Source: a virus. From it: a DNA stretch of 45,847 nt. Position 1 is the stretch's first letter. Each line of letters opens with the position of its first letter. Below the pieces are notes generated by a model. The model had not been told where the DNA came from and did no database searches. It was given only the letters and a program-made list of their open reading frames with translations. Made by a program: the position numbers and the translations under genes. Location: positions 1-45,847 of IMG/VR virus record IMGVR_UViG_3300023257_000042; one strand, written 5' to 3'. Shown here piece by piece: positions 5,651-45,152 of the stretch.

Positions 5651-5667
5651 CTCGGCCTCCTCACTGT

Positions 5668-17913: not shown

Positions 17914-20900
17914 CTATGAGACAGGGAGCATACACTTGTCCCCGGAACAGAAGGAATCATCCGTGTCATGGTGTACAGAGTCCAGCAGCATCGGAGTGAT
18001 CCGAGCAGTCATCTCAGTGTACTCCGCCTCGGTGATGGCTTCGTAGGGGGCCTGCTTGTATCCGTGGTCCCCGAGAGGAAGCACAGAGACCGCTTTGAGC
18101 TTGTCCTCGAACATCTCCAAACAAGCCTGTAGGTCCTCAACCTCATCCTTCCCAAAAGATACTGTAATGGAGACCTGATTATCTGTCCAGTGATGCTGCA
18201 AGGCAGCAGCGTTGGCGAACTGCTCCCACACGGTAACCTGCTCCTTCCCCTTCACAAAGAGCTTCTCCTTGACAGGAAAGGACACGACAACGGTGTCGTC
18301 GGCAACGACGTCAGGCTCCACGGGGTAACCGGCATCCACACAGATCTTGATCAGGGGGCTGGTAGCCTGGATGCGGACCCGGCGGATGTAGTACTCGCTG
18401 TGGGGGTAATGGATGCCCGGTGTCGCCCCACAGAGCAAACTGACGGTTCCTGAAGGTTTACATGTTGTAGTCTTGATGCTCAGGGGGATACCCAACCAGT
18501 CCGAATAAATTCGGTCCAGCTTCTGAACGTAGGTGTAACCTCGGTCGCACCAGTTCAGGAAGTCCCTCCGCCCAAACCGAGCCATCGCTTGAACGATTCC
18601 GGACATAGAACATCCGATACGACGATTCCGCATCATCACAGCATTCGCCCGAGGATCATGGGTCGGAACCAAGGTCACGGTCTTAGCATACAAATAGGCC
18701 ATTTTCAAAGTGCGCTCGAAGTCCTCGTATGTGTCATGATGCGCCGGGTAAGTTTCGACTAAATTACACAACTCCCAACTCTCCAATGATTGTTCGCCAC
18801 ATGGGTTTGTGCCACCTACCCGCCAATCCTTATTATCAGGAGAATGCCCCATGCGAGAAAACTTCCGAGCATTGTCCAACCAAAAGATACCAGGCTCTCC
18901 ATTGACAGCCATGGACCGGGCGACCTCAGCGTAATTCATCCCCACGTAACCAAAAATGGAATTATTTGAGTTGTGTACCAGAAAACCACTAGCCGAAAAG
19001 GACTTCACCTCTGGCACGGACATATCAAAAACAGCCTCTACCGGATCCTTGTTAATAGACGTAACCTTAAAATAAAGCGGCGGAAGATTACTTTCTCTAC
19101 TTGGTGTCCCAACCCCTTGCCAGGTCAGCAGCTTCGGTTGATGATGTATCCCACACAAGGACACAAAGCGTGCTGCCTCGGAGTGCCCTGCAAGGATAAG
19201 CCGATAAACAGCTTTGCAGTTAGCAATCTTACCCTGGAAGTCTTTACACTGAGCGTTTCGAACCTTGTGTACCCTAGAGGTGATCCCCAACCGGAACAAC
19301 ATTCTCTGCAAACGCTCCAAAAGAATCGGACAACTTTGATCGATTGCCAACGTTCGTCGTTTTTTCATTACATAACCGTCAGCATCAAAAAGACCAGAGG
19401 CAACACCAGCCACAAAGCTCAAAGACCCAGACTCCATCTGAGAAGTCAGTGTTTTGTTTCCCCTTTTCACACCCCATTGATGAGCGAAATCCGTAAAAGC
19501 CTTGGCTGAAATAAACCAATATGCTCTAGTACCCTTACCATGTGGTCCAGAAAAGCCCCTAAAATCAGACCTAGTTGGGAAATTGAAAATCTGACTGATG
19601 TAATTACGCAGAGAGTCGCACCCCGAATCTCCTACATAAATCACAATCCTAGCGATGTGAGAACGAACCGGATGGGTAGGGACATAACTCCCATCCCCTA
19701 TCAAGGATCCTAGTAGGTACCCCCGCTGATACTCTTGAGATGTTGGCAACACCTCATCTAAACAGGATGTCCTGTTATCAGAAATAACTAACCAATCATC
19801 AACCTGCAAATTTTCCGCTCTAACCCATCCTTGACGTGTCATTAAAGGATGGTTCCCTGAAACTCTTAAACTTTGCCCCCCCAACGTAGAGATACGAAAG
19901 ATAGGTTTGTGTCCCGTTTTCTTAACACCTGCCACTGGATAGAACTTCCCATTCACACGAGCTTGAAGACCTTTCTTCCCCACCAAACTTTGAATGGGCA
20001 CAAATCCCAAAGATGTCTCCACCATTGTGTCACCTGTTACACAGGCCCAACGTCTGTCAGCCAATGCTTCCTGATCCTGTTTGAGGGTGATAAAGTCCTG
20101 ATCATCGGGTTCCCCAAACATTATTTCGGCTGTATTATGTACTAGATACCCCCCCTGAACCACAAACTCATTAGCAGCCACAGAAAGATCATATGTCTCA
20201 TCCTCACGAACAGCATGTTCCACACCCAGGATGGCGACAGGAACAAGGGTAACCTCCCGGCCCGTGACGGACTCAAGTCGAGCAACTGTCATCTGGCGAC
20301 TGGTCCGACTCCAAACCATTCCCCCATCGGCCCATCCAGACACACCTCCGTCAAGGACCATAGCAGACGGAAAACCATAGTCATTTTGAGACCGAGGAGT
20401 TTTGTTCCCATTACAGTACTTAGAAGCAAAAGGAACAACACGCTTCTCCCATTGGGACACGGCCTTTTCCCCTACCACCGTCAAATAGTAAAGTGGCTGC
20501 CACCCATTAGGTACACGAGACTTGTCCTTATGTAACTGAAAACGAGAGGGAACACCAAGAGACGCCAAAACAGCCTGAACCTGTTTCAAATAATCGGGGT
20601 AAACACTAGCTGCCACAACAAGAGGGCGATTCTTAGACGAACCATCGGCGTCAAAAAGGCCTGCTACATACCCGGCTCGAACTGACGGTGTCCCTTGTAG
20701 AATACAATCGGGAACGTCAATCGAAACATGAGCCTGTTTGAATTGAGAGAAGTAGTCAGCAAGTTGTTTTGATGAAGCACGAAGCTTAAAACAACGGTCA
20801 TCCTCTTTGGGACCAATGATACCCGTGTTAACTCCAAAACGTCTAAACACGGCCTTTGCACGCTCCAAAATTGCCTCTTGACCCTCAGCTATAGCAATAC

Positions 20901-22266
20901 TGACTAAACCCTTCCCAGATGTCAGCCGCACGTAACCGTCCCCGTGCAGCAGTCCTAAAAACCAACCTGTCTCTGAATCCAACTCTGGGATTGTGATGTC
21001 CTTACACGTCGTGGAATGCAGAGGCCGATCATAGCTGTAGGGGGGTAACTCCGTAGGAGTGCCCTCAAGAACATGGTCTACGAACACCATGCGGTCACCA
21101 ACACCCAACTCCTTAGCCATCTTCCAGATATAACCACCCCTGATGTCAGAAAGCACCGCTATTTGATGTTTGTCGGTACACTCGAAAACACCCATCTGAG
21201 TGGTTATCTGACTGATAGGCTGAACACCCTGATCAACCCAATCCGTCACCTTGCTGTATCCGTCAGAGGTAACTACAGACAACCCCCTCCTCACCCTCTC
21301 AATAGGAATCAAACCTTCAGAGGTATGCACTAGGGTTCCTGCTGGGAGACATCGACGGACGCCTCCGGCCACGACTGCTTTGCCAATGAAGTTGAAAATG
21401 TCCACGATCTGAGCCGAAGAGATCCTCCGGGAGTCGCCTTCACCCTCCAACGTGATTGTAGCTGTCTGGATCGTAGCCCAGTCGTCAATGGTCTCGGTCT
21501 TGTGATGGGCCTTCATCCCTGTAGGAAGAAGGATCTTGGTGAGGTTTTCTACCAGTCCTGCAAGGGGCTTCGGTCCCGAGGCAATACCACCGAACGTCTT
21601 GATGGGCGTACCCCGCCCCCGAACCTGTGAATAATCGATGACCAGAGGATAGTGGCCCTTCCCCACGAAAGAGTTGAGCACGGTGCGGATCAACTCCACC
21701 CAACCCTCACGACTGTCCTCCACCACATGCGGTTCCAAGGTTGTCCTCGGTGCCACAAGCTTCGCTTTACCCACACCCTTTGTGTCACCCCCTACACCAA
21801 CACCTAACATTGACATATCCATCAGGAAACAGAAGGGTGCAGCGAAATCCTCGCCTATGTTCTCAGAGCTGACGAAGGCACAATTCTGAAGGCTGGCTGA
21901 ACCCCTTTGGTACACCAGATCAGTGCCCATGATCCACAGGCCCCTCCCCGGAGGGGAAAACTTGAAGTCCCACATACGTTCAAACATGTCTTGGGCTGAA
22001 CCTTGAGCCTTCTGCTCAACCCAGGGGAGGCCCATCTGGCGGCAGTGGATCTTCTGGATGTTGAAACACCCCTCCACCACACGCTGACAGGTTTGCCAGA
22101 ACTCCTCCGTGCCCCCATCAGGAAGATCCCTGGAGTAAGTTCTTTTGTAAGTAAGAAATCCGACCGGACCCCATTTGGGTTGACGTCCCTTAAACTGTTC
22201 TAAGAAGGATGAACTCAATGAAAAAACCCGAACCTTCCTATCGTCAGCCTCCTGCTGAAATATCAT
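17914..22266 (-). CDS. Class II (B12-dependent) ribonucleotide reductase containing two inteins
   Basis: 1,450 codons from ATG 22266 (GGGAGGA before it). After removal of the two inteins the enzyme has 686 residues, close to the monomeric adenosylcobalamin-dependent RTPR type (about 740). Recognisable parts: ASLQNCAFVS with the first active-site Cys; GTNPCGEQSLESWELCNLVE with the thiyl-radical Cys; CKPSGTVSLL; and a C-terminal CSGDKC redox pair. It converts ribonucleotides to deoxyribonucleotides for phage DNA synthesis, using cobalamin and no separate radical subunit. Both inteins sit in highly conserved stretches only 30 extein residues apart, so the enzyme is inactive until both are spliced. 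Confidence 0.93.
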   Translation of the reverse strand: MIFQQEADDRKVRVFSLSSSFLEQFKGRQPKWGPVGFLTYKRTYSRDLPDGGTEEFWQTCQRVVEGCFNIQKIHCRQMGLPWVEQKAQGSAQDMFERMWDFKFSPPGRGLWIMGTDLVYQRGSASLQNCAFVSSENIGEDFAAPFCFLMDMSMLGVGVGGDTKGVGKAKLVAPRTTLEPHVVEDSREGWVELIRTVLNSFVGKGHYPLVIDYSQVRGRGTPIKTFGGIASGPKPLAGLVENLTKILLPTGMKAHHKTETIDDWATIQTATITLEGEGDSRRISSAQIVDIFNFIGKAVVAGGVRRCLPAGTLVHTSEGLIPIERVRRGLSVVTSDGYSKVTDWVDQGVQPISQITTQMGVFECTDKHQIAVLSDIRGGYIWKMAKELGVGDRMVFVDHVLEGTPTELPPYSYDRPLHSTTCKDITIPELDSETGWFLGLLHGDGYVRLTSGKGLVSIAIAEGQEAILERAKAVFRRFGVNTGIIGPKEDDRCFKLRASSKQLADYFSQFKQAHVSIDVPDCILQGTPSVRAGYVAGLFDADGSSKNRPLVVAASVYPDYLKQVQAVLASLGVPSRFQLHKDKSRVPNGWQPLYYLTVVGEKAVSQWEKRVVPFASKYCNGNKTPRSQNDYGFPSAMVLDGGVSGWADGGMVWSRTSRQMTVARLESVTGREVTLVPVAILGVEHAVREDETYDLSVAANEFVVQGGYLVHNTAEIMFGEPDDQDFITLKQDQEALADRRWACVTGDTMVETSLGFVPIQSLVGKKGLQARVNGKFYPVAGVKKTGHKPIFRISTLGGQSLRVSGNHPLMTRQGWVRAENLQVDDWLVISDNRTSCLDEVLPTSQEYQRGYLLGSLIGDGSYVPTHPVRSHIARIVIYVGDSGCDSLRNYISQIFNFPTRSDFRGFSGPHGKGTRAYWFISAKAFTDFAHQWGVKRGNKTLTSQMESGSLSFVAGVASGLFDADGYVMKKRRTLAIDQSCPILLERLQRMLFRLGITSRVHKVRNAQCKDFQGKIANCKAVYRLILAGHSEAARFVSLCGIHHQPKLLTWQGVGTPSRESNLPPLYFKVTSINKDPVEAVFDMSVPEVKSFSASGFLVHNSNNSIFGYVGMNYAEVARSMAVNGEPGIFWLDNARKFSRMGHSPDNKDWRVGGTNPCGEQSLESWELCNLVETYPAHHDTYEDFERTLKMAYLYAKTVTLVPTHDPRANAVMMRNRRIGCSMSGIVQAMARFGRRDFLNWCDRGYTYVQKLDRIYSDWLGIPLSIKTTTCKPSGTVSLLCGATPGIHYPHSEYYIRRVRIQATSPLIKICVDAGYPVEPDVVADDTVVVSFPVKEKLFVKGKEQVTVWEQFANAAALQHHWTDNQVSITVSFGKDEVEDLQACLEMFEDKLKAVSVLPLGDHGYKQAPYEAITEAEYTEMTARITPMLLDSVHHDTDDSFCSGDKCMLPVS
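18970..20043 (-). other. Intein 2 in ribonucleotide reductase, LAGLIDADG type
   Basis: 358 residues between ADRRWA and SNNSIFGY. Starts with Cys (CVTGDTMVET), includes a SGNHPLMT block-B motif, two LAGLIDADG helices (LLGSLIGDGSY, ASGLFDADGYV) and ends SGFLVHN with Ser as the +1 residue. Splicing and nuclease residues are intact. It is unlike intein 1 in sequence, so they are independent arrivals and not a duplication. Confidence 0.93.
20134..21351 (-). other. Intein 1 in ribonucleotide reductase, LAGLIDADG type
   Basis: 406 residues, joined after AVVAGGVRR and before TAEIMFGE. It starts with Cys (CLPAGTLVHT), has a block-B-like region, two LAGLIDADG helices (FLGLLHGDGYV and VAGLFDADGSS), and ends YLVHN with Thr as the +1 residue. 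All splice residues (Cys1, the penultimate His, last Asn, +1 Thr) are present, so self-splicing is expected. The nuclease helices keep their acidic residues. The DNA is more A/T-rich than the exteins. Confidence 0.93.
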
Positions 22267-22350
22267 CCATCTTCCTCCCATGTGTACGAAGCACCGGAAC
22301 ACCAACCCAGTAAGAGGATGAGATTATCAAATCCCTACCGTGCCGCTCTC

Positions 22351-23583
22351 CTAAACTAACCCAATCAAGGACAAGCCTTGACTGGCGTTAGGTTCCTGCT
22401 TCACTGAGGATAGTTTCACCGGGTCCAAATGGACCAAGCCAGAGCTTTCCTCTCCACAGGCTGACACCGCCGAACTGACGGCCATATTTCTTAAATTACA
22501 AGCTGCGTTCTCATCACGATCCTGAATGTGCCCACAGGATACACAATGGAAAACCCGATCCCTCAAGGTTAAGTTGTGCCTAACCTCTCCGCAAACTGAA
22601 CACATTTTGGACGAAGGGAACCACCGATCTGCCTCTACGACTTCCCCACCGTGCCAGGCTACCTTGTACTTCAGACATCGAAGGAACTCTGACATACCAG
22701 CATCAGACAAAGCCCCAGCAAGGCAATGATTCTTCATCATTCCTGACACATTTAAGGACTCGATCCCAACAACCGCACACCGTTTGGCTATCGCAGTGGT
22801 GGCCTTATGAGTCGCATCCCTACGAACACAGGAAACTCGATAATGCTGACGAGCAAGACGATGCTTTGCTTTCCTCCGGTTCCTCGATCCCTTCCTCTTT
22901 CTGCTTACACCTTTTTGTAATCGCCGTAGACGTTGTGTTGCAGCCTTAAGTGCTCTGGGGTTCTCAAAGACCGTACCGTCCGATAAGACAGCAAGAGACT
23001 TGATCCCAACATCAACGCCGAGGATTTCGGTTCCAACGGTCCTCTCGTTCTCTTCCTCAAGGGCTAACGAAACGAACCAACGCCCAGCTCTTTCGGAAAC
23101 AGTAGCCCTCGTAATCTTAGCGCCTATTGGAACATATCCGTGCTCTTTCAGCCGAAGGTGGCCTAAACGAGGAAGTTGAACGTGGGTCTCTGAAACGTGG
23201 ATAGCGCCCGTCAGGGTAAAGGATCCGATGCCTTTACGTCGGCTCTTAAACCTTGGAAATCCCTTACGTTTTGCTTTCGTTTTGCAACGACGGAAGAAAC
23301 CATCGAAGGCTTTATCGAGGTTTCGTAAGGCTTCCTGCGGAGCGCACTTGGAAACCTCGTACATCCAAGGCATACCACCGTCATCTTTGGGAACTTTCTT
23401 AAGGGCATTCAATTCACGATGGAGGCTGATTGCCGAGGGAGATTTCTCTCCAGCTTTATGAGCCTCGATCTTTCGTCCCAATCCCCAATTATAGGCCCGT
23501 CTGGCTGCTCCAGCGTGCTGAAACAACGACGTTCGTTGGACGTTGTTTGGGTCCAGTTCGGTCTTGTAAGCCCGTTGGATCAT
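22351..23583 (-). CDS. tnpB: TnpB RNA-guided nuclease (IS200/IS605 or IS607 family)
   Basis: 410 residues. RuvC residues are intact: Asp191 (LGVDVGIKSLAV), Glu275 (VGIESLNVSG) and Asp357 (QDRDENAACNL). The zinc finger is CSVC (328-331) and CVSC (347-350). An active TnpB uses an RNA made from the element's right end to cut DNA and keep the element in place. No TnpA transposase is seen. Its ATG overlaps the stop of a tiny ribbon-helix-helix gene. The guide RNA should span the gene's 3' end and the sequence below 22351, but its boundary cannot be fixed by eye. Confidence 0.92.
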   Translation of the reverse strand: MIQRAYKTELDPNNVQRTSLFQHAGAARRAYNWGLGRKIEAHKAGEKSPSAISLHRELNALKKVPKDDGGMPWMYEVSKCAPQEALRNLDKAFDGFFRRCKTKAKRKGFPRFKSRRKGIGSFTLTGAIHVSETHVQLPRLGHLRLKEHGYVPIGAKITRATVSERAGRWFVSLALEEENERTVGTEILGVDVGIKSLAVLSDGTVFENPRALKAATQRLRRLQKGVSRKRKGSRNRRKAKHRLARQHYRVSCVRRDATHKATTAIAKRCAVVGIESLNVSGMMKNHCLAGALSDAGMSEFLRCLKYKVAWHGGEVVEADRWFPSSKMCSVCGEVRHNLTLRDRVFHCVSCGHIQDRDENAACNLRNMAVSSAVSACGEESSGLVHLDPVKLSSVKQEPNASQGLSLIGLV

Positions 23584-25497: not shown

Positions 25498-25710
25498 TCA
25501 GGTGGTGATTTGAAAGACACCTTTACAAGTGAGACAGCGGTACCGGGTGAATGTCCCACCCTGCTCCGCATTGAAGGACCCAATGGAAATAGCTCCTACA
25601 GGACGGTTGGTCCTGCTGGAAATGATCTCAGCCTGGTTGCCTGGACACTTCTCATTCGCCCTACAGGAGATCCACACCGTCTTCTTGGGTTCTGTCTGTT
25701 TATCAATCAT
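25498..25710 (-). CDS. Small zinc-binding protein
   Basis: 70 residues from ATG 25710, overlapping the previous stop (TAATG), GGAGG seven bases upstream. Cysteines in WISCRANEKCPGNQAE and YRCLTCKGVF form a likely zinc ribbon. Unknown function. A GAGTAGT element lies at 25469-25475, just after its stop. Confidence 0.65.
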   Translation of the reverse strand: MIDKQTEPKKTVWISCRANEKCPGNQAEIISSRTNRPVGAISIGSFNAEQGGTFTRYRCLTCKGVFQITT

Positions 25711-26213
25711 TAGTCTACCTCCGGGTACTGCAACCGTTGATGTCCATCGATCCATGCGAGTTGGGGATCCACAACCGGGTAGGCTGAGTCCCCACTCAGG
25801 GCCAGAGGGCCTCTTAGGATCGGTTCCCCAATCAGGGAAGCCAGGAACTCAGCGTCTAAAACGGACACCTCAGTAGGATTGACCTGTTCCCTCAAGAGAG
25901 CAGCCCAAGCCCGTACCAAGGTCTCCCAGTCAGCCACGTCCCCCTTCTTGAACTGTACCCAAAGTTCGTCACCATCTCCCTGCATTAGTGGAACAACGGC
26001 ATACTGCCACATGTCCCAACTCACCTTGAAGGGGAAGAACCGATCAGCACCTTCCCCAACAGGAGGATTGACGTTCCTGCTAATCACCACCCACTCAGAG
26101 GGATGTGCCCTCGTAGACGTAGGGAAATCCACTACCGCTTTGTTGGCTTGGATGTAGGCACACCCCAAACCGATGAGCAGTAGATCCTGTTCTCCAAGAT
26201 AGGTGGTCGTCAT
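25710..26213 (-). CDS. Hypothetical protein
   Basis: 167 residues from ATG 26213, with GGGAGG eight bases before it; the frame is open to 26273 without a better signal. Contains DRFFPFKVSWDMWQYAVVPL and LIGLGCAYIQANKAVV. No family recognised. It is the first gene after the structured RNA region and starts the unit that includes the clamp-loader genes. Confidence 0.6.
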   Translation of the reverse strand: MTTTYLGEQDLLLIGLGCAYIQANKAVVDFPTSTRAHPSEWVVISRNVNPPVGEGADRFFPFKVSWDMWQYAVVPLMQGDGDELWVQFKKGDVADWETLVRAWAALLREQVNPTEVSVLDAEFLASLIGEPILRGPLALSGDSAYPVVDPQLAWIDGHQRLQYPEVD

Positions 26214-26289
26214 CGTAGATCCCTCCCACCCAGGTTCCTTCATAGGAGGAAAACCAGCAAGGAGATCCAGCACTGGTATAGATAAGGGC

Positions 26290-26930
26290 AGGGATTACAC
26301 AGGGTTAGGGAAGGGGAAGGAGAAGACGGTTAAACCTGTCTTTGGATACAGATCGGCCCCATAAAAGGGCCATAGGGCTTTCGCCCGTTGGTTTCAGGAT
26401 CACTCACCTCACGGTAACGATCTCTAAGGTTCTAGTTTTCAACTTTCTCATTTTCACTATCACTGATTCCACGAGCATCCTATCGGATGCCCTAAGACTA
26501 TGTAGGGTCCATAACCTTAGGGGTTTAACCGGAGATGCTGGGGCAACCCTTACGAGAGGATCATCCTCAATCCTCATGGGCTCCTTTCGGTCCCTCCCTC
26601 AAAGGGTAGGGCACACGTGGTCTTGCCACCTCCTCTTCCGAGGGGATGAAGGACATCCTGCAGGAAGAGGGAACTCTGTCTGTTCTTCAAAGAACGGGCT
26701 CAATCCAGGAGACATTCGGCCTAGCTCAACGGCTTTCCCATCGGTTACCCGATTGCCCCTCATCGCTGGTGTCCCTGACCCCAGGAACATCCAGATAGAC
26801 CCCCGACTTATACTTCCCCGAAGGGAACATCGAAGCGGGGCGGAAGAGGCACTCCCAGAACTGATTCTCAAGATCCGGTTGGATCGAGCCTACAGACTCA
26901 ATGGAACAGTTAGACTATGATGGTGGGCTG
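26290..26930 (-). ncRNA. Candidate large structured RNA (about 600 nt)
   Basis: No convincing gene fits 26214-26944. Instead the minus strand carries many perfect short stems whose loops are the stable RNA tetraloops: TTCCC-TTCG-GGGAA (26814-26827), ATCGG-GTAA-CCGAT (26740-26753), CCTC-GGAA-GAGG (26632-26643) and GGGC-GAAA-GCCC (26375-26386). Others are GTTCT-TTGA-AGAAC (26682-26695), a bulged CCCTACCCT/AGGGAGGG stem (26592-26611), GCATCC-GATA-GGATGC (26475-26490) and GGCCC/GGGCC (26355-26371). On the plus strand the same loops are not GNRA or UUCG, so the RNA is read from the minus strand. TTGACA at 26936-26931 could be the -35 box; the -10 is poor. Size and ornateness recall GOLLD and ROOL phage RNAs, but I cannot match either. 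Ends are approximate. Confidence 0.6.
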
Positions 26931-26944
26931 TGTCAAGCGGTCTG

Positions 26945-28039
26945 TCAGGAAAGTCCCAAGGTGCTGATGTACCTGGAGGCCACTCTTTTGATCTGTTCCT
27001 GGTTGTTTGCAGCGGCACGTGGGCGTGGACGGTCGGGTCGAGGTGACAGGAGGGAATCCATGTCTACACCTCTGAGGGAAGAAGCATCCCAGTAGATTCC
27101 GTAATCGCTGGCCTTCTCCTCCATCATAGTAAGCAGGCGGGGCTTGGACTTGAGCGCTTGGAGGAACTTCTTCCACCGGGGCTTCCAGTGCCGCTGATGG
27201 AAAGGTGAGGGCCTTATGCCTGCCTTCTCCGCTACCTCCTTCTGGGTCGGGTAACGGTGTTGACCTTCCACAATGCTGAGCCACTGAAGCATAGGGGGAC
27301 TGTCGTGCCAAGCAGCCCGCATCAGATCCCTGACCTTAGAACCCACCGGATCGTGGGTGTGGCGGAACACCACCTCTGCCAGGAACTCCCCAAACTCGTC
27401 CGGGTCATAACTAAGAAGGTTGGGGTCTTCTGCGGGGTCAGCCTCACCGAACTCGATGGGGTTCCCTTCCTCGTCCACAGGGTACGGGACATCCCGCTGC
27501 TTCCGTTCCTCTACGTCTACCTTGTTCCCAAAGTACTTACAGAGCATCCCTATTCCAATGCTGACGGGGGTTTCCTGACCGTCCAGGATCCGTTTCTTGA
27601 GCTTTTGGCCCACCATGTAGGCGGGACGTTTGATCGATCCAAGGTTGGCTCCGAGGCCCATGAGGTTGCTCGTGATGACGTCTAGGGGATCGATCCACCG
27701 GAGCTTGTAGCTGTTGATAAGTTTTGCCACACAACGGAAGACCGTGGTGTACATCCCAGTGTTGCCAGGGGAAAACCATCCTGCAGGGATCTGATGACCC
27801 TTGTCCTCGAAGTAGCTCTGGGCGTGCTGAAGCTGACCCCTCGGCCTCGGCTTCTCCATCCAGGTACCCACGGGGACGCCTGCGACACCCTCCAGTACCT
27901 GGAGGCGCAACATTATGTCGAAGTCTCGTTCGACGCCGCCCTTGACCCAGCGGGTTGCCAAACGTCGTGCCGGAGGCTCCGTGTCCGCTATCTTCCCACT
28001 CAGGCTTTTCAGCAGTTCCGCTCTGATTTCGATGCTCAT
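26945..28039 (-). CDS. Possible sigma-like or DNA-binding protein
   Basis: 364 residues from ATG 28039 (GGAGGG before it). A C-terminal part resembles sigma region 4 or another helix-turn-helix: MLQWLSIVEGQHRYPTQKEV then AEKAGIRPSPFHQRHWKPRW. An earlier helical block (YTTVFRCVAKLINSYKLRW, DPLDVITSNLMGLG) could be region-2-like. The C-terminus ends QIKRVASRYISTLGLS, sharing the VASRYL motif with the virion-like proteins downstream. It is divergent from the other sigma-like gene at 28283. The DNA-binding idea is moderate; an unrelated virion role is possible. Confidence 0.4.
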   Translation of the reverse strand: MSIEIRAELLKSLSGKIADTEPPARRLATRWVKGGVERDFDIMLRLQVLEGVAGVPVGTWMEKPRPRGQLQHAQSYFEDKGHQIPAGWFSPGNTGMYTTVFRCVAKLINSYKLRWIDPLDVITSNLMGLGANLGSIKRPAYMVGQKLKKRILDGQETPVSIGIGMLCKYFGNKVDVEERKQRDVPYPVDEEGNPIEFGEADPAEDPNLLSYDPDEFGEFLAEVVFRHTHDPVGSKVRDLMRAAWHDSPPMLQWLSIVEGQHRYPTQKEVAEKAGIRPSPFHQRHWKPRWKKFLQALKSKPRLLTMMEEKASDYGIYWDASSLRGVDMDSLLSPRPDRPRPRAAANNQEQIKRVASRYISTLGLS

Positions 28040-28141
28040 CCGTAACCCTCCATCACAACCGTCATCACAGTCTAAGTATAAGCATATCACCGTCCAGCAC
28101 TTTCGTCCCAAAACATCAGAGAAAAACCTGGATGTTTTCCC

Positions 28142-33000: not shown

Positions 33001-33579
33001 GTCCAGGGCATCGATGATGTCCTGCATGTCACCAGTTGGGGTGAAGCGGTTGAGCTTCCGACGCCGCTTTTTGGCCTGTGCGACTTGGGACTTCCACTCT
33101 GCGTGCCCCATCATCTCCAGTACCTTGTAAAGACGGGAGTAGATTTTGTCCGCTCCAGGCCACGACGGAGTCGATGCAAGGACACGACGGAAGGCCGCAC
33201 GTAACTCAAGTGTTCCCGCCATTTCGAAGTTGCTCTCATCCACGGCTAGAGGGCATTCGGGAGAACCCCTTCCCGGTCCTGTACCATCGGGTACACCTTG
33301 GATTCCTTCGACCAGTTGTTCATCCTCGAACAGGGGATAGTCAGAGGAGTTACACCCCGGCCCCGTACCATCAGGCACACCTCTGGTTCCTCCAGCCAAC
33401 CGTTCGTGAGGACATTCAGGGGAGCCTTTTCCTGGGCCTGTGCCATCAGGTATACCTCGGGTTCCTTCTACCAGTTGCTCCTCTTCGGATAGAGGACAAT
33501 CCGGGGAGAATCTACCCAGTCCTGTACCATCAGACACACCCGGAACAATTCCTGCCAAACGTTGCATCTTTTTACTCAT
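30049..33579 (-). CDS. Large multidomain virion-like protein with internal repeats
   Basis: 1,176 residues, ATG with GAGGG eight bases before it. The first 115 residues hold four copies of a DGTG(P/L)G unit, e.g. GIPDGTGPGKGSPECP and GVPDGTGPGRGSPECP. Three copies of ADPT(E/K)NMS with DKKKW or DKALW follow at about residues 280, 815 and 860. The central part includes NHIIDLTRLRLVPDTWDD and YVLDSLVRVSQMKVGHIYG. Near residue 985 is a Cys motif (FDNCVAYQKECGKDIRDP, NALCAWIGREHG), and a later KVARRVYAKDERVAPFL segment recalls the VASRYL motif. Such motif mixtures occur in phage virion proteins. Enzymatic function is not visible; it could be an internal head or tail protein. Confidence 0.6.
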   Translation of the reverse strand: MSKKMQRLAGIVPGVSDGTGLGRFSPDCPLSEEEQLVEGTRGIPDGTGPGKGSPECPHERLAGGTRGVPDGTGPGCNSSDYPLFEDEQLVEGIQGVPDGTGPGRGSPECPLAVDESNFEMAGTLELRAAFRRVLASTPSWPGADKIYSRLYKVLEMMGHAEWKSQVAQAKKRRRKLNRFTPTGDMQDIIDALDNGDEEELKALNLEHLRAASQKDVTRLASMQSLINVNLKDDTEITGDTNPVGESTSLLPGDAHDEREGMFEKGEPADPTKNMSEADKKKWDEERIKHKDQFKQATVFPDETSRREYLRKHPDADPQMHSVEHTVVEKTPEPEIKRKPEPKGKTSSMTRLGGPVTVIPNEEPSSELPGAGDEPTVVMDIAASGQGVKKQVTQWMYVISRDSGGGFLVTLGDPRKTTSDIKLRTTDRNDLKDWIHDNVGRKISPNHIIDLTRLRLVPDTWDDNFIASLPDNVARGLTATGETILESKWGKTITAGVRPIHEIAVDIRRDWKPVNYAAKPHLDAMFRLDDITDSFGADSARQIVAYFLTNASSWRGPKAKEIKAELNKMIKNSRRAGRWNEPEALPKFYGKEYVLDSLVRVSQMKVGHIYGVEEGRGGHLDFFKFSGFTDNDVKYGDGGVKYKSLRDLMRAKGVRNLRALEALEHKPEYGHGFYMCGDWGPGQKGCDLYIFNGRWVVGSGAQPVSFWSTDPAPTGHQAGRDSTPRYVLKVYPVTRRYSQSNSIWDSRSYGKPTRNNIARFVKKHNESLEPGEPNEQVGPHGAIYGGAILDQFNDNDIVAFWQDKRIIREYAQRGIRADEQLARFEEGESADPTENMSPEDKKKWEKYHGKVDELEGKDASDEQVARFEEGKPADPTENMSKEDKALWDKYHGKVDELDGKAASDNPLEGYPDGQIQINDWKSSSVQPDGSVRVKGADITWTRLGTCGEKYKDDKGDFKGGKGEAFDNCVAYQKECGKDIRDPNALCAWIGREHGKIKGAAAGGLYGFTKGVQSDCEGCVRKLTKQAEKVARRVYAKDERVAPFLVTHAKKADSLSAKILVAALGNIGPKIASDEPEDPPEDGKTAKRKYGLYGHLAKTARLGLSACTDVRDVAGHLVSDLHSRRSDRHTNVTAFLDRHAQEGDCVYSRLLHSSYPDPDRKSASGAPDTVDGWLAWSE

Positions 33580-33591
33580 GATTTGTACCCT

Positions 33592-34182
33592 CTAGTTCAT
33601 TGCTTCAATTAAGGCAGCTAGTGACGTTTCATCTAGCCCCAGTCTCATTGCCTTGTTCAGTTTCAGTGCTAGTTGAACATCAGGCCCCAGGCTCTGAGTG
33701 GACTCGGCTTTCCTAATGTATCCCTTGAGGAACTGAACGACATCTGCCACTGTTTCAGCAATTGCTTTGCGGACACGAGGCTCATCATTATGTCCGGGAT
33801 CCTTCACTCGGTGGTCTACAAACCACCAGGAGTTAGTGTGTACCAGAAAGAACACCCCGTCCGGGAAGGTGAAGGTTTGCAGATGCTTCGTCCCGGACAT
33901 AGTAATGGCACTGATGGAGAGAGCAGCATACTCGCCCCCATGGAAGGTGGTTTGGGCAAAACCCACCGCTACGTCTGAGATCGTGGGGGAATCCAACTCA
34001 AAGGACATTGCCAGCTCGTTTTTTCGGGTGCCCTTTTTCCCGATGCCCTTCCCCACAGCCTGGATCACCTGAAGAGGTGTGCTTCGGTGGTCCCATCGAG
34101 CCTGTTTGAGGATCGGTACAAGGTGCCTCTGGGTCTCGGGGTGTTTCCTCGCCAGCTTCACAAGTTCTTTCCTCAGGCTCAT
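33592..34182 (-). CDS. Hypothetical virion-associated protein
   Basis: 196 residues, ATG five bases after GGGAGG, overlapping the previous stop (ATGA). Starts with SLRKELVKLARKHPETQRHL then VPILKQA, a helical N-terminal motif seen repeatedly in phage structural proteins. A mixed beta region follows (DVAVGFAQTTFHGGEYAALS, VFFLVHTNSWWFVDH) and a helical tail. Function unknown. Confidence 0.6.
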   Translation of the reverse strand: MSLRKELVKLARKHPETQRHLVPILKQARWDHRSTPLQVIQAVGKGIGKKGTRKNELAMSFELDSPTISDVAVGFAQTTFHGGEYAALSISAITMSGTKHLQTFTFPDGVFFLVHTNSWWFVDHRVKDPGHNDEPRVRKAIAETVADVVQFLKGYIRKAESTQSLGPDVQLALKLNKAMRLGLDETSLAALIEAMN

Positions 34183-38293: not shown

Positions 38294-39868
38294 CTACCGT
38301 GTGATGGCTACCTCAACCGTCAGGATGGTGGTGGCTACGGAAACAGCCACCCGCAAAGCGGCCCTCACAACCTTGGTGGGGTCCATCACAAGCGGCTCCT
38401 CAGCCAGGTTACGTATCTGCCCCTGGGAGGCGTCCCATCCGATCCAGGGGTTCCCTGAGTCAGCCCACTCTCTCGTCATTGCCTCGATGACAGCCCCCGA
38501 CTTCTCCCCGGCGTTTTCAGCCAGGATCTGAAGGGGTCGTGCCGCAGCCTGGCCCAGGATCTCCCAACCCATCCGATGGGGGTAGCCCTTCTGGGGCCAC
38601 TGCACCCGGTGTGCGGCGTGGAGCAGAGCAGCACCCCCACCGGGCACAACCCCTCCCTGCAAGGCGGCTCGCACCGAAGCCAGGGCGTCCTCCACTCGGG
38701 CACGGCGCTCCTTCATTGCTATCTCCGTGACACCCCCGATCTTCAGGACAGCCAGGCCACCGGACAGTGCTGCCATCCGCTCCCGGATCTTGTCCTGGTC
38801 AAATGCTGAGGGAGATCGTTCCACCTGAAGCCGCAGGGTGTCAAGGTACTCCTGGAGGCCCTCTTGCTTGTCTTCGTAGGCTGTGATAACGATGGATTTG
38901 TTCCTGATACGGACATGATGGAAAGCTCCGAACCAGTCAGCATTCCATTCCTGTGGGCTCATCCCTAGTTCTCTGGTGACGAGGGTAGCTCCAGCCAGGG
39001 CTGCAATGTCCTGGAGGTGTTCTCTCTTCCAGTGTCCGAAACCAGGACATTGGAGGGGGACGTTCTTCACGGTGCCCTTTGAGTCATTCACGGACAGGAT
39101 CGCCAAAGCGTCATGACTGACCCCCAGCGAGAAAATCAGGAGTTCCCGAGGTTGCCACTGGGAGGCACATTCCAACAGATCCTGGATGTCTCTCACCGAC
39201 CTGAGTTCCTGGTTGATAACCGCAACGAGAGGACCAGTCATCGTCCGTTCCCTCTCGTTCCGTAGGAAGACATTGCTGACGGCCCCCCTGTTCAACTCCA
39301 TCCCTTCCTGGTACTCAAAACGGACGTCGGTACTTTGACCGTCCTCAATGACAATGGTGCCGTCCCGTCCCACGGCCATCGTCGCTTCGGACAGAGCCTC
39401 AGCGACCTCGGTGTCCCCGTTGGACGCCAGCATCGCTACCCGTGTGATTTGCTCAGGGGTGCTGATGGGTGTGGACATGTCCTGGAGTGCCTTGTCCAAG
39501 GCATCCGCAGCGTCTTTGATCCCCAGGCAAAGCTGACCAGGATCGATCCCAGCAGCAACCATCTGTTGACCACGTTTCAAAATCTCGGCGGCCAGGAGGG
39601 CAGTCGTGGTTGTCCCGTCCCCGACTTCCTCGTTCACCTTCACACAAGCAGACCTCAGGAGGGCTGCGCCCTGGTTCTCTACTGCATTGTCCAGCACGAC
39701 CTCGTGGGCCACGGTGACGCCGTCCCGTGTGGACAGGACACCAGCCCAGCGGGACAGGAGACAGTTTCTACCATGGGGGCCGTAAGTCACCCCCACAGCC
39801 TCTGCCAACCTGAACGCACCCCAGAGCAATTGCTTCCGCACCTTTTGGCCATGTAAAATGTAGGACAT
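38294..39868 (-). CDS. groEL: Phage-encoded GroEL-type chaperonin
   Basis: 524 residues, ATG preceded by GAGGAGGGGGGA. GroEL landmarks are clear: TYGPHGRNCLL and RDGVTVAHEV near the N-terminus, VGDGTTTTALLAAEIL (82-97) with the catalytic Asp, the NGDTEV hinge and GGVVPGGGAALLHAAHRV near residue 410. Length is essentially full, but the GGM tail is absent. Chaperonin encoded by a phage can fold virion proteins and replace host GroEL; known for the Pseudomonas phages EL and OBP. No groES is visible in the window. A perfect 10-bp inverted repeat lies just upstream. Confidence 0.93.
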   Translation of the reverse strand: MSYILHGQKVRKQLLWGAFRLAEAVGVTYGPHGRNCLLSRWAGVLSTRDGVTVAHEVVLDNAVENQGAALLRSACVKVNEEVGDGTTTTALLAAEILKRGQQMVAAGIDPGQLCLGIKDAADALDKALQDMSTPISTPEQITRVAMLASNGDTEVAEALSEATMAVGRDGTIVIEDGQSTDVRFEYQEGMELNRGAVSNVFLRNERERTMTGPLVAVINQELRSVRDIQDLLECASQWQPRELLIFSLGVSHDALAILSVNDSKGTVKNVPLQCPGFGHWKREHLQDIAALAGATLVTRELGMSPQEWNADWFGAFHHVRIRNKSIVITAYEDKQEGLQEYLDTLRLQVERSPSAFDQDKIRERMAALSGGLAVLKIGGVTEIAMKERRARVEDALASVRAALQGGVVPGGGAALLHAAHRVQWPQKGYPHRMGWEILGQAAARPLQILAENAGEKSGAVIEAMTREWADSGNPWIGWDASQGQIRNLAEEPLVMDPTKVVRAALRVAVSVATTILTVEVAITR

Positions 39869-41069: not shown

Positions 41070-41153
41070 GTCGGAATGGTGGAACTGGTAGACACGCTAG
41101 ACTCAGGTTCTAGTGCCTTAAATGGTGTGAGGGTTCGACTCCCTCTTCCGGCA
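41070..41153 (+). tRNA. tRNA-Leu (CAG)
   Basis: 84 bases. Acceptor stem pairs GTCGGAA with TTCCGGC (one wobble). Anticodon loop CTCAGGT gives CAG. Long variable arm as expected for Leu, T arm GAGGG-TTCGACT-CCCTC. 3' CCA not encoded. Confidence 0.93.
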
Positions 41154-41301
41154 CCGAGGACGGCTTGAGAGGTGGAAAACCTGTTTGAGCTTCACCCATT
41201 TGTACGATGGGCGTCGGGGTATAAACTTGAGGAGACGCTGCTGAATTCAAAACAGGTCAGCGGCAAGGGGCCTTGATAAAACTCGACCTGCGTGGGTAAC
41301 C

Positions 41302-41341
41302 AGTCCCACCCGTCCTGGCGGAGAGGAGACCGGGTGGGACT
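41302..41341 (+). repeat. 10-bp perfect inverted repeat between tRNAs
   Basis: AGTCCCACCC (41302-41311), 20 bases, GGGTGGGACT (41332-41341). It lies in the 208-base gap before tRNA-Tyr, which otherwise holds no recognisable gene. Possible processing hairpin. Confidence 0.55.
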
Positions 41342-41361
41342 CCCGGCCTTCTCTCTAGTAT

Positions 41362-41445
41362 GGTGGGGTGTGCCGAGCGGCGAAGGCAGCGGTCTGTAAA
41401 ACCGTGACGTAAGAAACATCGTAGGTTCGACTCCTACCCCCACCA
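41362..41445 (+). tRNA. tRNA-Tyr (GTA)
   Basis: 84 bases, acceptor GGTGGGG/CCCCACC, anticodon loop CTGTAAA, long variable arm, T arm GTAGG-TTCGACT-CCTAC. Confidence 0.93.
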
Positions 41446-41458
41446 CCATAAAGAGTAC

Positions 41459-41545
41459 GGAGGGGTGGGCGAGTGGTTGATGCCGACGCCCTGCTAAGGC
41501 GTTGTAGGGGAAACTCTACCGGGGGTTCGAATCCCCCCTCCTCCG
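41459..41545 (+). tRNA. tRNA-Ser (GCT)
   Basis: 87 bases, acceptor GGAGGGG/CTCCTCC with one G-T pair, anticodon loop CTGCTAA, long variable arm, T arm GGGGG-TTCGAAT-CCCCC, discriminator G as expected for Ser. Confidence 0.92.
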
Positions 41546-41668
41546 CTTTGTCCTGGTCTGAGCCTGCCGGGTGTAGGGTACAAACCCTTGTCCCCTTCTG
41601 TGTCAATCCTGAACTATTACCCACGGATAGGACGATGCGGAACAGCGAGGTAAGGTAGGGCTCATTTT

Positions 41669-41752
41669 GCGAACGTGGTGAAGGGGTAGACACGCTGCGT
41701 TGAGGGCGCAGTCCTGCTTGACGGGGTGTGGGTTCGAATCCCATCGTTCGCA
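41669..41752 (+). tRNA. tRNA-Leu (GAG)
   Basis: 84 bases, acceptor GCGAACG/CGTTCGC, anticodon loop TTGAGGG, long variable arm, T loop TTCGAAT. The 123 bases before it show no gene. Confidence 0.93.
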
Positions 41753-41756
41753 CTAT

Positions 41757-41845
41757 GGAGGGGTCGCCTAGTCAGGCTATGGGCATCTGCTTGGAAAGCA
41801 GACGTGGGTGCAAGTCCACCGGGAGTTCAAATCTCCCCCTCTCCG
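41757..41845 (+). tRNA. tRNA-Ser (GGA)
   Basis: 89 bases, acceptor GGAGGGG/CCTCTCC, anticodon loop TTGGAAA, long variable arm, T arm GGGAG-TTCAAAT-CTCCC, discriminator G. Its 3' end is overlapped antisense by the end of the 41827-42297 gene. Confidence 0.92.
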
Positions 41846-42297
41846 CTGTCCGTTGGTAACCAACCGCTGCTCAAGGTGGTCGCCATCTGCTGACGACCTT
41901 CAGGTGTGCTGGCGAGTTCCCGTAGGAAGGAGGGGCTAGCAAGAACTCTCGTCAAATCAATCTCCCAAGTCTTGTCAAGACACTGGAAACCAATTCGACG
42001 TGTTAGGACATTGTCCAGGGGTTCAATGGTTTTGTCCGAGTCATCAGACAAAACAAAGGCTTGGATCTGTACCAGCATGTCGGTCAGATCCTGATAGAGT
42101 CCCTCGTCCCCTCGGTAGATCTGATCGGACTCCAGGTAGATTTCTTGACCACGACAAACGGTCACCCTTCGGATCTGTCCCTTTGATGTTAGAGTCAGTC
42201 TTGCGATGGCTTCACCTTTTCGAAAGGGTTTAACCGCTGTGATGGTCCAACCAATAAGTTTTGCTAGGGCCTCAGCAGAGGGGTTTTTGATGCTCAT
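41827..42297 (-). CDS. Hypothetical protein inside tRNA array
   Basis: 156 residues from ATG 42297, nine bases after AGGAGG. Mixed alpha/beta sequence (SAEALAKLIGWTITAVKPF, GQIRRVTVCRGQEIYLES). It is the only minus-strand non-transposon gene in the tRNA region, and its last 19 bases run through the tRNA-Ser(GGA) gene. No family recognised. Confidence 0.65.
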   Translation of the reverse strand: MSIKNPSAEALAKLIGWTITAVKPFRKGEAIARLTLTSKGQIRRVTVCRGQEIYLESDQIYRGDEGLYQDLTDMLVQIQAFVLSDDSDKTIEPLDNVLTRRIGFQCLDKTWEIDLTRVLASPSFLRELASTPEGRQQMATTLSSGWLPTDSGEGEI

Positions 42298-42348
42298 GGT
42301 TTTTGTCCTCCTGTCCAACAATACCCCGGACAGGTGAATTCCTTTACG

Positions 42349-42421
42349 GGTGCGTAGCTCTAACTGGTAGAGCATCGGATTCCAAATCCGAGGGCTGGGG
42401 GTTCGAATCCCTCCGCACCTG
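42349..42421 (+). tRNA. tRNA-Trp (CCA)
   Basis: 73 bases, acceptor GGGTGCG/CGCACCT with one wobble, D stem GCTC/GAGC, anticodon loop TTCCAAA, T loop TTCGAAT, discriminator G. Confidence 0.92.
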
Positions 42422-42437
42422 CTGGTGTTCTTTCTAT

Positions 42438-42573
42438 GGCGGCGTGGGCAAACTGGTAAAGCCACAAGACTTAATCTTGTTTCGTAAAACATCGTTCCAC
42501 ACCTCGGACCCTGTCATGGGGACCAAACTGGGGAACAAACACGCACCTGGAGGTTCGAGTCCTCCCGCCGCCA
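42438..42573 (+). tRNA. Aberrant 136-nt tRNA, anticodon TTA (or TAA), with inserted arm
   Basis: Acceptor GGCGGCG/CGCCGCC and T arm GGAGG-TTCGAGT-CCTCC are perfect. The best anticodon stem, ACAAG/CTTGT, has the loop ACTTAAT: anticodon TTA with C at position 33, which would read the stop codon UAA. If the loop is misread, TAA (Leu) is the alternative. Between anticodon stem and T arm are 68 bases, with nested stems GTTCC/GGAAC (42494-42535) and GG-CCC/GGG-CC. A normal long variable arm is about 15 bases. It may be an insertion, a small processed segment, or a decaying gene. Confidence 0.6.
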
Positions 42574-42583
42574 CCCACCTTTT

Positions 42584-42656
42584 GCCGGGGTAGCTCAACT
42601 GGTAGAGCGCCAGACCGAAAATCTGGGCGTAGGCGGTTCGACTCCGCCCCCCGGCA
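42584..42656 (+). tRNA. tRNA-Phe (GAA) with C33
   Basis: 73 bases, acceptor GCCGGGG/CCCCGGC, D stem GCTC/GAGC, anticodon arm CCAGA-CCGAAAA-TCTGG. The anticodon is GAA, but position 33 is C where U is nearly universal. T arm GGCGG-TTCGACT-CCGCC. Confidence 0.88.
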
Positions 42657-42663
42657 CTCTTTT

Positions 42664-42738
42664 GCCCGGATGAAGGGAATTGGCATACCTCTAGCACTTA
42701 AAATGCTGGGTTTGGGGGTTCGACTCCCCCTCCGGGTA
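42664..42738 (+). tRNA. tRNA with anticodon TAA and short variable loop
   Basis: 75 bases, acceptor GCCCGGA/TCCGGGT, anticodon loop CTTAAAA (TAA, Leu UUA), T arm GGGGG-TTCGACT-CCCCC. The variable loop has only five bases, a class I structure, whereas bacterial tRNA-Leu has a long arm. Charging identity is therefore uncertain. Confidence 0.85.
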
Positions 42739-42742
42739 CTAT

Positions 42743-42826
42743 GCCAGGATGGTGAAGTTGGTAGACACTCCGGTTTTAGGGGCCGGTGGGCTTCGGTCCG
42801 TGCGGGTTCGACTCCCGCTCCTGGCA
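42743..42826 (+). tRNA. tRNA-Leu (TAG)
   Basis: 84 bases, acceptor GCCAGGA/TCCTGGC, anticodon loop TTTAGGG (TAG, reads CUA), long variable arm, T arm GCGGG-TTCGACT-CCCGC. Confidence 0.92.
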
Positions 42827-42832
42827 CTTTGT

Positions 42833-42860
42833 GGATCATCTCAGGTTCCCCCAGAGTAGA
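42833..42860 (+). promoter_or_regulatory. Bipartite phage promoter-like motif, copy 6
   Basis: GGATCATCTC (42833-42842), 11 bases, GAGTAGA (42854-42860), starting six bases after the tRNA-Leu and 21 bases before the next ATG. Confidence 0.7.
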
Positions 42861-42881
42861 CCTTGTGAAAGGAGGACTGGG

Positions 42882-43592
42882 ATGACGGACAAAGACATGT
42901 ACCCATCGGATGAACTTGGACTGCTCCTAGCGGAGATCGGACCTGGCCACCCGTTGGCTTTGCGCCTCCAACGGATTCTCACAAACATCCAAGACAGGAA
43001 GGAGATCACCCAAGAGTTCGATTTCCTCACCAGTGAGGGTGCAACTGTTCGTGTGCTCGAACACCCCTGTGGGGAACACAGATGGTTCTTCGATTACCGT
43101 TTCATAGGGGCACGGGATCAAAAGCGCAAACCCGAGTCCGTGGTGGAGTGGAAGTGCCTGGTGGATTATCGGAACGGCGTGCTGCAACCGTCACTCCAGA
43201 TCAGCATGAACATTACGATTCCCAAGCTACTGGGGAAAAGGTTCCTTTTCGGGCTGGACCTCTCGCCGGGGGCCAAAACGTATTTCAATTTCACCTACGA
43301 GATGTGTGACGAAGACACCTTCCGGCTCGTTGAGATCCAAAAGGGGGCCAGAACCGTCATGGACCTCCGACCAATGTGGGCCGAAGAGGGTGAGGGCTTG
43401 ATCCAGCAGGTAACACCCCCCTTCCCCCTGGTTGTACAGGAACGGATCCAGCGAGAGTACGAGAGTAAGGACCGGAAAACAGGAGAGACCCAATGGCTGG
43501 GGCGTTTCCGTGTACCCTTCCCCTACCGGGATCAGGAAGCCGGAATTGAGAGTGTGCATCACATCTATTTTTCAGACAGTATTGTCCGATAA
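42882..43592 (+). CDS. Hypothetical protein inside tRNA array
   Basis: 236 residues, ATG with GAAAGGAGG six bases before it; the frame open from 42786 runs through the tRNA and is not used. A helical start (PSDELGLLLAEIGPGHPLAL) is followed by a beta-rich body (ISMNITIPKLLGKRFLFGLD, TYFNFTYEMCDEDTFRLVEI). No family recognised. It is driven by copy 6 of the phage motif and ends five bases before tRNA-Leu(CAA). Confidence 0.75.
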   Translation: MTDKDMYPSDELGLLLAEIGPGHPLALRLQRILTNIQDRKEITQEFDFLTSEGATVRVLEHPCGEHRWFFDYRFIGARDQKRKPESVVEWKCLVDYRNGVLQPSLQISMNITIPKLLGKRFLFGLDLSPGAKTYFNFTYEMCDEDTFRLVEIQKGARTVMDLRPMWAEEGEGLIQQVTPPFPLVVQERIQREYESKDRKTGETQWLGRFRVPFPYRDQEAGIESVHHIYFSDSIVR

Positions 43593-43596
43593 TTCC

Positions 43597-43681
43597 GCCA
43601 ACGTGGTGAAATTGGTAGACATGCAGCACCCAAAATGCTGTGGGCTTTACGCTCGTGAGGGTTCGATCCCCTCCGTTGGCA
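43597..43681 (+). tRNA. tRNA-Leu (CAA) with C33
   Basis: 85 bases, acceptor GCCAACG/CGTTGGC, anticodon arm CAGCA-CCCAAAA-TGCTG, anticodon CAA (reads UUG) with C at position 33, long variable arm, T loop TTCGATC. Confidence 0.9.
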
Positions 43682-43688
43682 CCTTTGT

Positions 43689-43848: not shown

Positions 43849-44928
43849 TCAGGTCGTGCAGGACCGGGGGACCATAGACTCCCCGACGGCCCGAGCAAGG
43901 ATGTTCACGCTGCCAACAAAGTCGGCATCGGCGGCGTACCCACACCGCACGCACACGAACTTCTCATTCACTCGGTTGGATCTAGCCCGATGAGTACAGG
44001 AAGGACATATCTGCGAGGTGTACGCTGGATTTACTTCCACCCGTCGAACACGGTTCAGACGGGCTTTCCATTCAATCCGGCGCAGCACGTAGGCGTATGT
44101 CCAGGGGGCCAGAGCCCTGCGAAAACTCTTACCTCGATTGGGTTTCTTTCCCTTCTTGAGGTTTGTCAATTTTTCGACGGCCACCAACTGCAACTTATCC
44201 CAAGGCAGTTGATTCAACGTCTCATCAATGTATTGATCCCGAGCCCGTCGAGCACGGAACTTGCCCTTAGAACCGTTCTTACATCGGCAAACACGTCGCA
44301 CATACTTAGACATATCAGCGCCGTAGATCTTCCCATCGGAAGTGGCGATAAGCTTGTTCAATCCGACATCAATGCCCAAGACAGTTCCTTGCTCCTTGAG
44401 GGCAAGGTCCGGAAGCTCCACCCAGAGGGTTACGAAGTAGACCCCTGCTCGACATCCGATAGCACATCCACCCTTCAGTTTCGCCCCCGGCATAATCAAC
44501 AGCTTTCTGAGGTGTCTGGTGGCCTTGAGAGGTACATTGATACAGTGCCTTCTGGAGAGAGTCGAGAAACGCATCCACAAATCGAACTCACTCGTCTCGG
44601 TGGCTTCTGTTATGGCAGCAAGCTGCTTAGACAAAACCATTGCCCCAGAAAACGCAGGACAGGTGGCCAGATTCCCCGTTTGGGCAGCGCTTCTTCGTGT
44701 GGCCGCTACAATGCCGAGCGCCTGTTGGAGCGCATGCCCCCTCATCCGAAACGTCAGGTGACCAAGAGGAACGACGTCAGCGGTTGCTTTGTTAAGGCTA
44801 CCGCCATAACTCCAGATGTGCTGAATATAGGCGTTGACGGTAGCACGGTAGCGGTCAAGAACGGCCACGATCTTCGCCACTTTCGAGACGCTGGCAAACT
44901 TCAACGAGAGCTTGGTTGACGCAATCAT
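43849..44928 (-). CDS. tnpB: TnpB RNA-guided nuclease, second and unrelated copy
   Basis: 359 residues from ATG 44928, directly after a promoter, so probably leaderless; longer upstream frames have no signal. RuvC residues Asp187 (LGIDVGLNKLIATSDG), Glu252 (VAVEKLTNL) and the DAD at 334-336; zinc cysteines CPSC (308-311) and CVRC (326-329). All catalytic residues are present. It differs throughout from the first tnpB, so it is a separate arrival. No tnpA is seen. It lies between tRNA-Leu(CAA) and a small gene, antisense to the tRNA transcript. Confidence 0.9.
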   Translation of the reverse strand: MIASTKLSLKFASVSKVAKIVAVLDRYRATVNAYIQHIWSYGGSLNKATADVVPLGHLTFRMRGHALQQALGIVAATRRSAAQTGNLATCPAFSGAMVLSKQLAAITEATETSEFDLWMRFSTLSRRHCINVPLKATRHLRKLLIMPGAKLKGGCAIGCRAGVYFVTLWVELPDLALKEQGTVLGIDVGLNKLIATSDGKIYGADMSKYVRRVCRCKNGSKGKFRARRARDQYIDETLNQLPWDKLQLVAVEKLTNLKKGKKPNRGKSFRRALAPWTYAYVLRRIEWKARLNRVRRVEVNPAYTSQICPSCTHRARSNRVNEKFVCVRCGYAADADFVGSVNILARAVGESMVPRSCTT

Positions 44929-44934
44929 GGATAG

Positions 44935-44963
44935 AGTATATGCCGAAGAAATTGGTCTGTCAA
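44935..44963 (-). promoter_or_regulatory. Near-consensus sigma-70 promoter of second tnpB
   Basis: Minus strand TTGACA (44963-44958), exactly 17 bases, TATACT (44940-44935), then six bases to the ATG. The start codon falls on the predicted first transcribed base. Confidence 0.8.
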
Positions 44964-45152
44964 TTTTTGACGGGGAATTAAAAAAGAGGGTCAGGTTATG
45001 TCCATAAGGACCGGAAATGAAGGAACCTTTGCAACGCCGCAAGGCATGTTGGTGTCTCATACTCAAAGGCACAACACTAGTGGGTACTACTCGACGCCCA
45101 AACCCCTCGGATACGGTTGGAAGCCCGAACGGTTCACACTGATGGAGGTTCC

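Follow-up and report, generated by a model that had tools for sequence, protein, structure and literature searches.

A gap between two genes in a 45.8-kb virus record (IMGVR_UViG_3300023257_000042; the whole stretch analysed, 45,847 nucleotides, is called the window here) is predicted, with strong support from comparative sequence analysis, to encode a large structured noncoding RNA on the minus strand. This RNA represents a new class that falls in none of Rfam's catalogued families, and it meets the general criteria for a large structured noncoding RNA, i.e. conserved structure, compensatory changes and no conserved ORF. Our favoured reading, which we hold to be probable in the absence of any transcript data, is that the locus encodes a large noncoding RNA, free-standing and at least ~500 nt long, and would be the type locus of a new giant-phage family.

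The gap had previously been described as 730 bases without a gene; we measured 731 nt, bounded by the end of the sigma-like ORF at 26945 and by the probable ATG of the next ORF at 26213, which has a GGGAGGG ribosome site, and found no conserved gene in it (Table 1). An antisense ORF of 192 aa does lie on the plus strand (26342-26920) and is longer than shuffled sequences give (P=0.003). It is missing from all of the relatives and matched no PHROG or Pfam family, and it therefore provides no evidence of a gene and was dropped as a candidate.

Table 1. Coordinates of the RNA, its predicted elements and its flanking genes in the window.
Feature	Position	Strand	Details
Sigma-like gene	26945-28111	-	flanks RNA upstream; 28-36% identity to counterparts in relatives
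Intergenic gap holding RNA gene	26214-26944	-	731 nt; no conserved ORF; conserved synteny
TTGACA, promoter -35-like box	26931-26936	-	TTGAC upstream of P1
5' domain closed by long-range helix P1	26697-26890	-	26881-26890 with 26697-26706, 10 bp
Helix P2 enclosing hairpins B1 and B2	26754-26851	-	26845-26851 with 26754-26760
Hairpin B2	26766-26794	-	loop GGGU 26778-26781, complementary to 26505-26509
Signature block	26723-26753	-	GUAA hairpin C, then RGGRAAGCCNUUGAGCU
Hairpin D	26682-26695	-	5/5 pairs with two-sided changes
Arm E	26632-26670	-	8-bp helix, UGC/CUC internal loop, inner helix, loop UCCUU 26649-26653
Hairpin F	26592-26611	-	3/4 pairs with two-sided changes
Arm G	26540-26587	-	A/(GA,AG,UG) one-by-two internal loop, 7-bp hairpin, loop GAGGAU 26563-26568
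3' domain hairpins H0 (26490-26522) and H1 (26476-26489)	26476-26522	-	predicted
Poorly structured linker	26425-26469 (approximate limits)	-	local folding energy drops
~167-aa ORF	25710-26213	-	flanks RNA downstream; adjoins RNA in 5/5 members

Besides the window, four divergent members were found, at least two of them in giant phages. The first, L016, lies in a 536-kb phage record (G015) that was found by a ribonucleotide-reductase seed and also encodes the sigma-like protein; its gap of ~745 nt is flanked by the sigma-like gene on one side and by a homologue of the window's short ORF on the other, and folds at z=-4.0. The short ORFs of the window and L016 are 42% identical over 69 aa and the sigma-like proteins 32% identical. 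Aligning these short ORFs led to L064 (G046, IMGVR_UViG_3300025545_000003), a 107-kb phage contig that is one of three near-identical copies, L064-L066. Searching 2.9 million viral contigs and 11.3 million genome contigs with a pattern that describes only the RNA (GGTAACNNNNNGGNAANCCNTTGAG) then added two members: L067, in a 436-kb phage record, and L073, in a 124-kb contig that binning had assigned to a bacterial MAG and that also encodes the reductase and a phage-type helicase. In both, the sigma-like gene, the gap, the short ORF and the clamp-loader subunits follow in that order. The gene order common to the members is sigma-like gene, RNA, ~170-aa ORF, clamp loader and ribonucleotide reductase, and as the pattern that returned this matching neighbourhood was drawn from the RNA alone, the result argues strongly for homology. 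All other pattern matches in these contigs lacked the neighbouring genes and were set aside as chance.

Other searches returned little. Comparison of the RNA by blastn with phage records gave nothing or chance matches only, as did comparison of its sequence with 45 ribonucleotide-reductase relatives (chance matches only). Viral scans with the sigma-like protein alone, with GroEL or with a 20-base RNA pattern gave no usable result. A search with two aligned sequences of the sigma-like protein led back to the 536-kb phage alone, and no further member came from seeking this protein in 392 genomes of one phylum. An nhmmer profile built from the five gaps aligns them end to end at 290-460 bits, as it must by construction. 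Homologues in related phages, which the preliminary description had proposed to look for, thus exist as four divergent relatives at the same position, and a conserved protein at the locus, which it had named as a ground for refutation, is absent across the five members.

The five RNAs share little sequence beyond the GUAA hairpin with its RGGRAAGCCNUUGAGCU block and a few loops, so their helices can be tested by covariation. A two-sequence MAFFT/RNAalifold consensus misaligned the distant parts and was replaced by anchored helices; the structure was aligned by hand, with helices picked by eye, and rests on only five independent members. The sequence of P1, the long-range helix that closes the 5' domain, differs in every member: its strands are GGCUCGAUCC/GGAUUGAGCC in the window, GAACCGAUUC/GAAUCGGUUC in L067, GUUUAGGUCA/UGACUUAGAU in L016, GACCGACCUG/CAGGACGGUC in L064 (one mismatch) and CGUUGAUCC/GGAUCAAUG in L073. 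When all 120 assignments of strands were compared the cognate one ranked first (-12.6 vs -3.4 kcal/mol), while an unbiased window-versus-window duplex test was significant in some members only. P1 encloses P2, which carries hairpins B1 and B2 and is directly followed by the GUAA hairpin C; P2 has two-sided changes in 6/7 pairs and its cognate strands also rank 1 of 120. On the 3' side of P1 come hairpin D, arm E, hairpin F and arm G, in that order. All eight outer pairs of arm E show two-sided changes, and its UGC/CUC internal loop is invariant in 5/5 members. The 3' domain is poorly resolved overall; hairpins like H0 and H1 can be recognised in L016, L064 and L067, and L073 could not be resolved. 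In the relatives, too, local folding energy drops in roughly the region that corresponds to the linker of the window.

Taken over ten helices (61 pairs) in the five members, 286/298 cells hold standard pairs (96%), and 50 of the pairs have changed on both sides. When 3' strands were swapped between members as a control, pairing fell to a mean of 68% and a maximum of 81%. In the four members without the window, two-sided change was seen in 25/34 pairs, vs 11 in shuffles and 3-6 in slid controls. Covariation, which the preliminary description had proposed to test, is thus present in this structure, with compensatory changes in nearly every helix. We also built a covariance model from the E-G part of the four other members, leaving the window out. 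This held-out model finds the window at 26540-26670 (-) with 67.4 bits (E=9.7e-21), vs 31.5 bits for the same alignment without structure, so that base pairing contributes roughly half of the signal. Among 48 related records the model recovered known members only. The training alignment was not wholly blind to the window, because the helices had been chosen by eye on all five members.

Two contacts between loops are also suggested by the alignment. Loop E is complementary to loop G in 5/5 members (cognate rank 1 of 120): UCCUU faces GAGGA or AAGGA in three members and CCUU faces AAGG in L016, while in L073 both loops have changed, loop E to GAUCCA and loop G to UGGAUC. Comparison thus shows a putative contact that is matched across five members, and sequence cannot separate an intramolecular from an intermolecular one. 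Loop B2 is complementary to the 3' domain at H0 through sequences that differ between members (rank 2 of 120), namely GGGUC/GACCC in the window, GGUCGGUC/GACCGACC in L067 and AGGCAU/AUGCCU in L073, with the weakest match in L016. This second contact is probable, and here too pairing within one molecule and between molecules cannot be told apart.

Folding of the window sequence against 20 shuffles per strand gave z=-3.64 for the minus strand and z=-1.93 for the plus strand. The preliminary description had argued that minus-strand GNRA and UUCG tetraloops were far from chance and fixed the strand, and its strand argument holds: hairpins with a GNRA/UNCG tetraloop on a stem of at least 4 bp number four on the minus strand vs 0.19 expected (0/500 shuffles), and one on the plus strand (P=0.16). 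As evidence about the family, the four loops it had listed fare unequally. The GUAA loop (26745-26748) is conserved in 5/5 members, but inspection of the relatives showed UUCG (26819-26822) and GAAA (26379-26382) to be specific to the window, and GGAA (26636-26639) is no loop, its bases belonging to the 3' strand of the outer 8-bp helix of arm E, which covaries across members. The tetraloop statistic is correct, yet it reflects the structure of the family only in part. Perfect stems of at least 5 bp were only marginally enriched (12 vs 6.5, P=0.06).

In 5/5 members the sequence upstream of P1 contains a single TTGAC, 35-47 nt ahead of the helix; a -35 box would be expected at this distance if transcription began a few nucleotides before P1. 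The -10 boxes are weak, a consensus scan calls no sigma-70 promoter at the window site, and the stretch from the RNA to the next gene showed no terminator. The RNA probably has a TTGAC-type promoter of its own, placed immediately behind the sigma-like gene, a prediction that has only the -35 box behind it and no transcript data. Given boxes placed as expected, weak -10 regions and no terminator, a separate transcript is probable and has not been shown; with no terminator found before the next gene, the RNA may belong to an operon transcript.

This last point bears on the main rival explanation, that the RNA is a long structured 5' leader controlling in cis the operon of the ~167-aa ORF, the clamp loader subunits and ribonucleotide reductase. 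It owes that place to a position that never varies, always directly upstream of the ~167-aa ORF, and to the missing terminator between RNA and ORF; in the window, part of the ORF's ribosome site can also pair. However, no ribosome-site pairing common to all members was seen, the core exceeds 350 nt with several arms and is far larger than usual switches, and it ends at 26540, well before the ORF start at 26213, with a poorly structured and unconserved stretch between. We therefore regard a cis-acting leader as unlikely, although it remains a serious competitor.

The flanking proteins raise another alternative: the RNA could be part of a ribonucleoprotein with the sigma-like or the ~167-aa protein, perhaps steering phage transcription. 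RNA and both flanking genes occur together in 5/5 phages, and the upstream protein is weakly sigma-like in fold, its top PDB matches being mostly sigma factors, none of them significant (AlphaFold model, low confidence). The product of the ~167-aa ORF has no significant PDB fold match (AlphaFold model, low confidence), and, against a ribonucleoprotein, neither protein matches an RNA-binding family or fold. The 485-kb record LR745208.1 (L098) also speaks against it, as it shares the clamp-loader/reductase neighbourhood and has weak matches to both RNA-flanking proteins, but the RNA was not detected there and extra ORFs occupy the place where it would be; loss, replacement or an RNA too divergent to be seen are all possible. 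We consider the ribonucleoprotein improbable, and less credible than the leader. The sigma-like gene itself varies: in L067 two copies are fused in tandem within a single ORF of 710 aa (3786-5918, -), and G015 has a second, partial copy containing a stop codon (365863-366390).

Among known RNAs, the obvious comparison is with GOLLD and ROOL. The GOLLD cage is a 14-mer and the RNA is often found near tRNA islands; the ROOL cage is an octamer held by conserved intermolecular kissing loops. Both families are of unknown function and form cages (PMC12286853). Like the new RNA, GOLLD is large (hundreds of nt) and phage-encoded, with a GNRA loop, loop-loop contacts and a variable linker, and ROOL, whose solved structure has 659 nt, is of similar length and phage setting, with a conserved kissing loop and an unstructured linker (PMC12286853). 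The resemblance noticed at the outset thus stands for size, loop-loop contacts, a GNRA hairpin and an unstructured stretch, but does not extend to membership in GOLLD: the new RNA has no match to the model, lies outside a tRNA island and has its own secondary structure. No family matched in Rfam 15 at gathering/curated thresholds; at E up to 10 only weak, unrelated matches appeared in the three members searched, none of them credible, and intron, RNase P, tmRNA and other Rfam models likewise gave no credible match. The GOLLD model (RF02032) found a true GOLLD in G046 at 33496-33936 (154.4 bits, above cut-off), which served as a positive control, and did not match the new RNA in the same phage; since the one is found and the other not, the new RNA is not GOLLD. 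The model had no match in G000, G015, G049 or G050. The ROOL model (RF03087) matched none of six records and no control genome either, so that its silence comes without a positive control; the new RNA further differs from ROOL in not lying in a tRNA island. That it is a very divergent GOLLD or ROOL RNA, as phage setting, size, GNRA loop and loop-loop contacts could suggest, is very improbable given the lack of a credible Rfam match at any threshold in three members, the GOLLD control in the L064 phage and the absence of tRNA genes near the RNA in L016, L064, L067 and L073. Weakest of all, the notion that the pairing merely reflects base composition or a conserved protein gene could point to the 192-aa antisense ORF in the window, but that ORF is not kept in the relatives, covariation and held-out detection contradict the notion, and it can be considered refuted.

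The GOLLD of G046 (locus L107) lies inside a tRNA island and the new RNA of the same phage at 90.7 kb; one phage thus carries two different large ornate RNAs. OLE RNA is also large and ornate, at about 600 nt, but is found mostly in Gram-positive extremophile or anaerobe bacteria as part of a ribonucleoprotein complex (PMC12054373), and the new RNA has no Rfam match. That the RNA is a new class rather than a new member of a known one, the two options left by the preliminary description, is upheld by homologues at the same position, no conserved protein and compensatory changes in nearly every helix. We found no report of it in the literature; its novelty is judged only against Rfam 15 and the literature searched, because coverage of subscription papers and preprints is incomplete.

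As the comparison shows, the five members share one secondary structure, with a P1-closed 5' domain, hairpin D, arm E, hairpin F and arm G. Under the favoured reading of a free-standing noncoding RNA, transcription would probably start at the TTGAC-type promoter described above, and we infer that the RNA would accumulate during infection and act as a compact scaffold itself, not as a message or switch. The arms of this scaffold may be held by loop-loop contacts within or between copies; neither multimerisation nor a target is known. More tentatively, the RNA could assemble by itself into a multimeric particle made of RNA only, which would make it the third phage family of this type, without kinship to either GOLLD or ROOL; cage formation is untested.

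Other features of the window may be recorded here. The ribonucleotide reductase ORF (17914-22305, -, 1463 aa) has an HNH endonuclease-like stretch at 444-487 and is about 420 aa longer than that of L016, so that it probably contains an intein. Two TnpB-like (IS605 OrfB) genes lie at 22351-23583 (-) and 43849-45402 (-), the latter with an unusual long N-terminal part. Ten tRNA genes, five of them Leu, are clustered at 41070-43683 (+), whereas most genes lie on the other strand; the distance from the RNA to the first tRNA is 14 kb. A GroEL-type phage chaperonin gene (PHROG 5725) occupies 38294-39868 (-).

Very few RNAs of such size and complexity are known, most of them without a known function. 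With the covariance model and the five aligned members, further sequences of the class can be searched for, and probing and cryo-EM offer direct tests of the contacts proposed here. The new RNA, whose fixed address is marked by replication genes and a sigma-like gene, not by a tRNA island, offers a new comparison for the function of ornate phage RNAs. The phage that has both the new RNA and GOLLD suggests that the two RNAs are not interchangeable, and if the multimeric-particle reading were true, one virus would make two different ornate RNAs.
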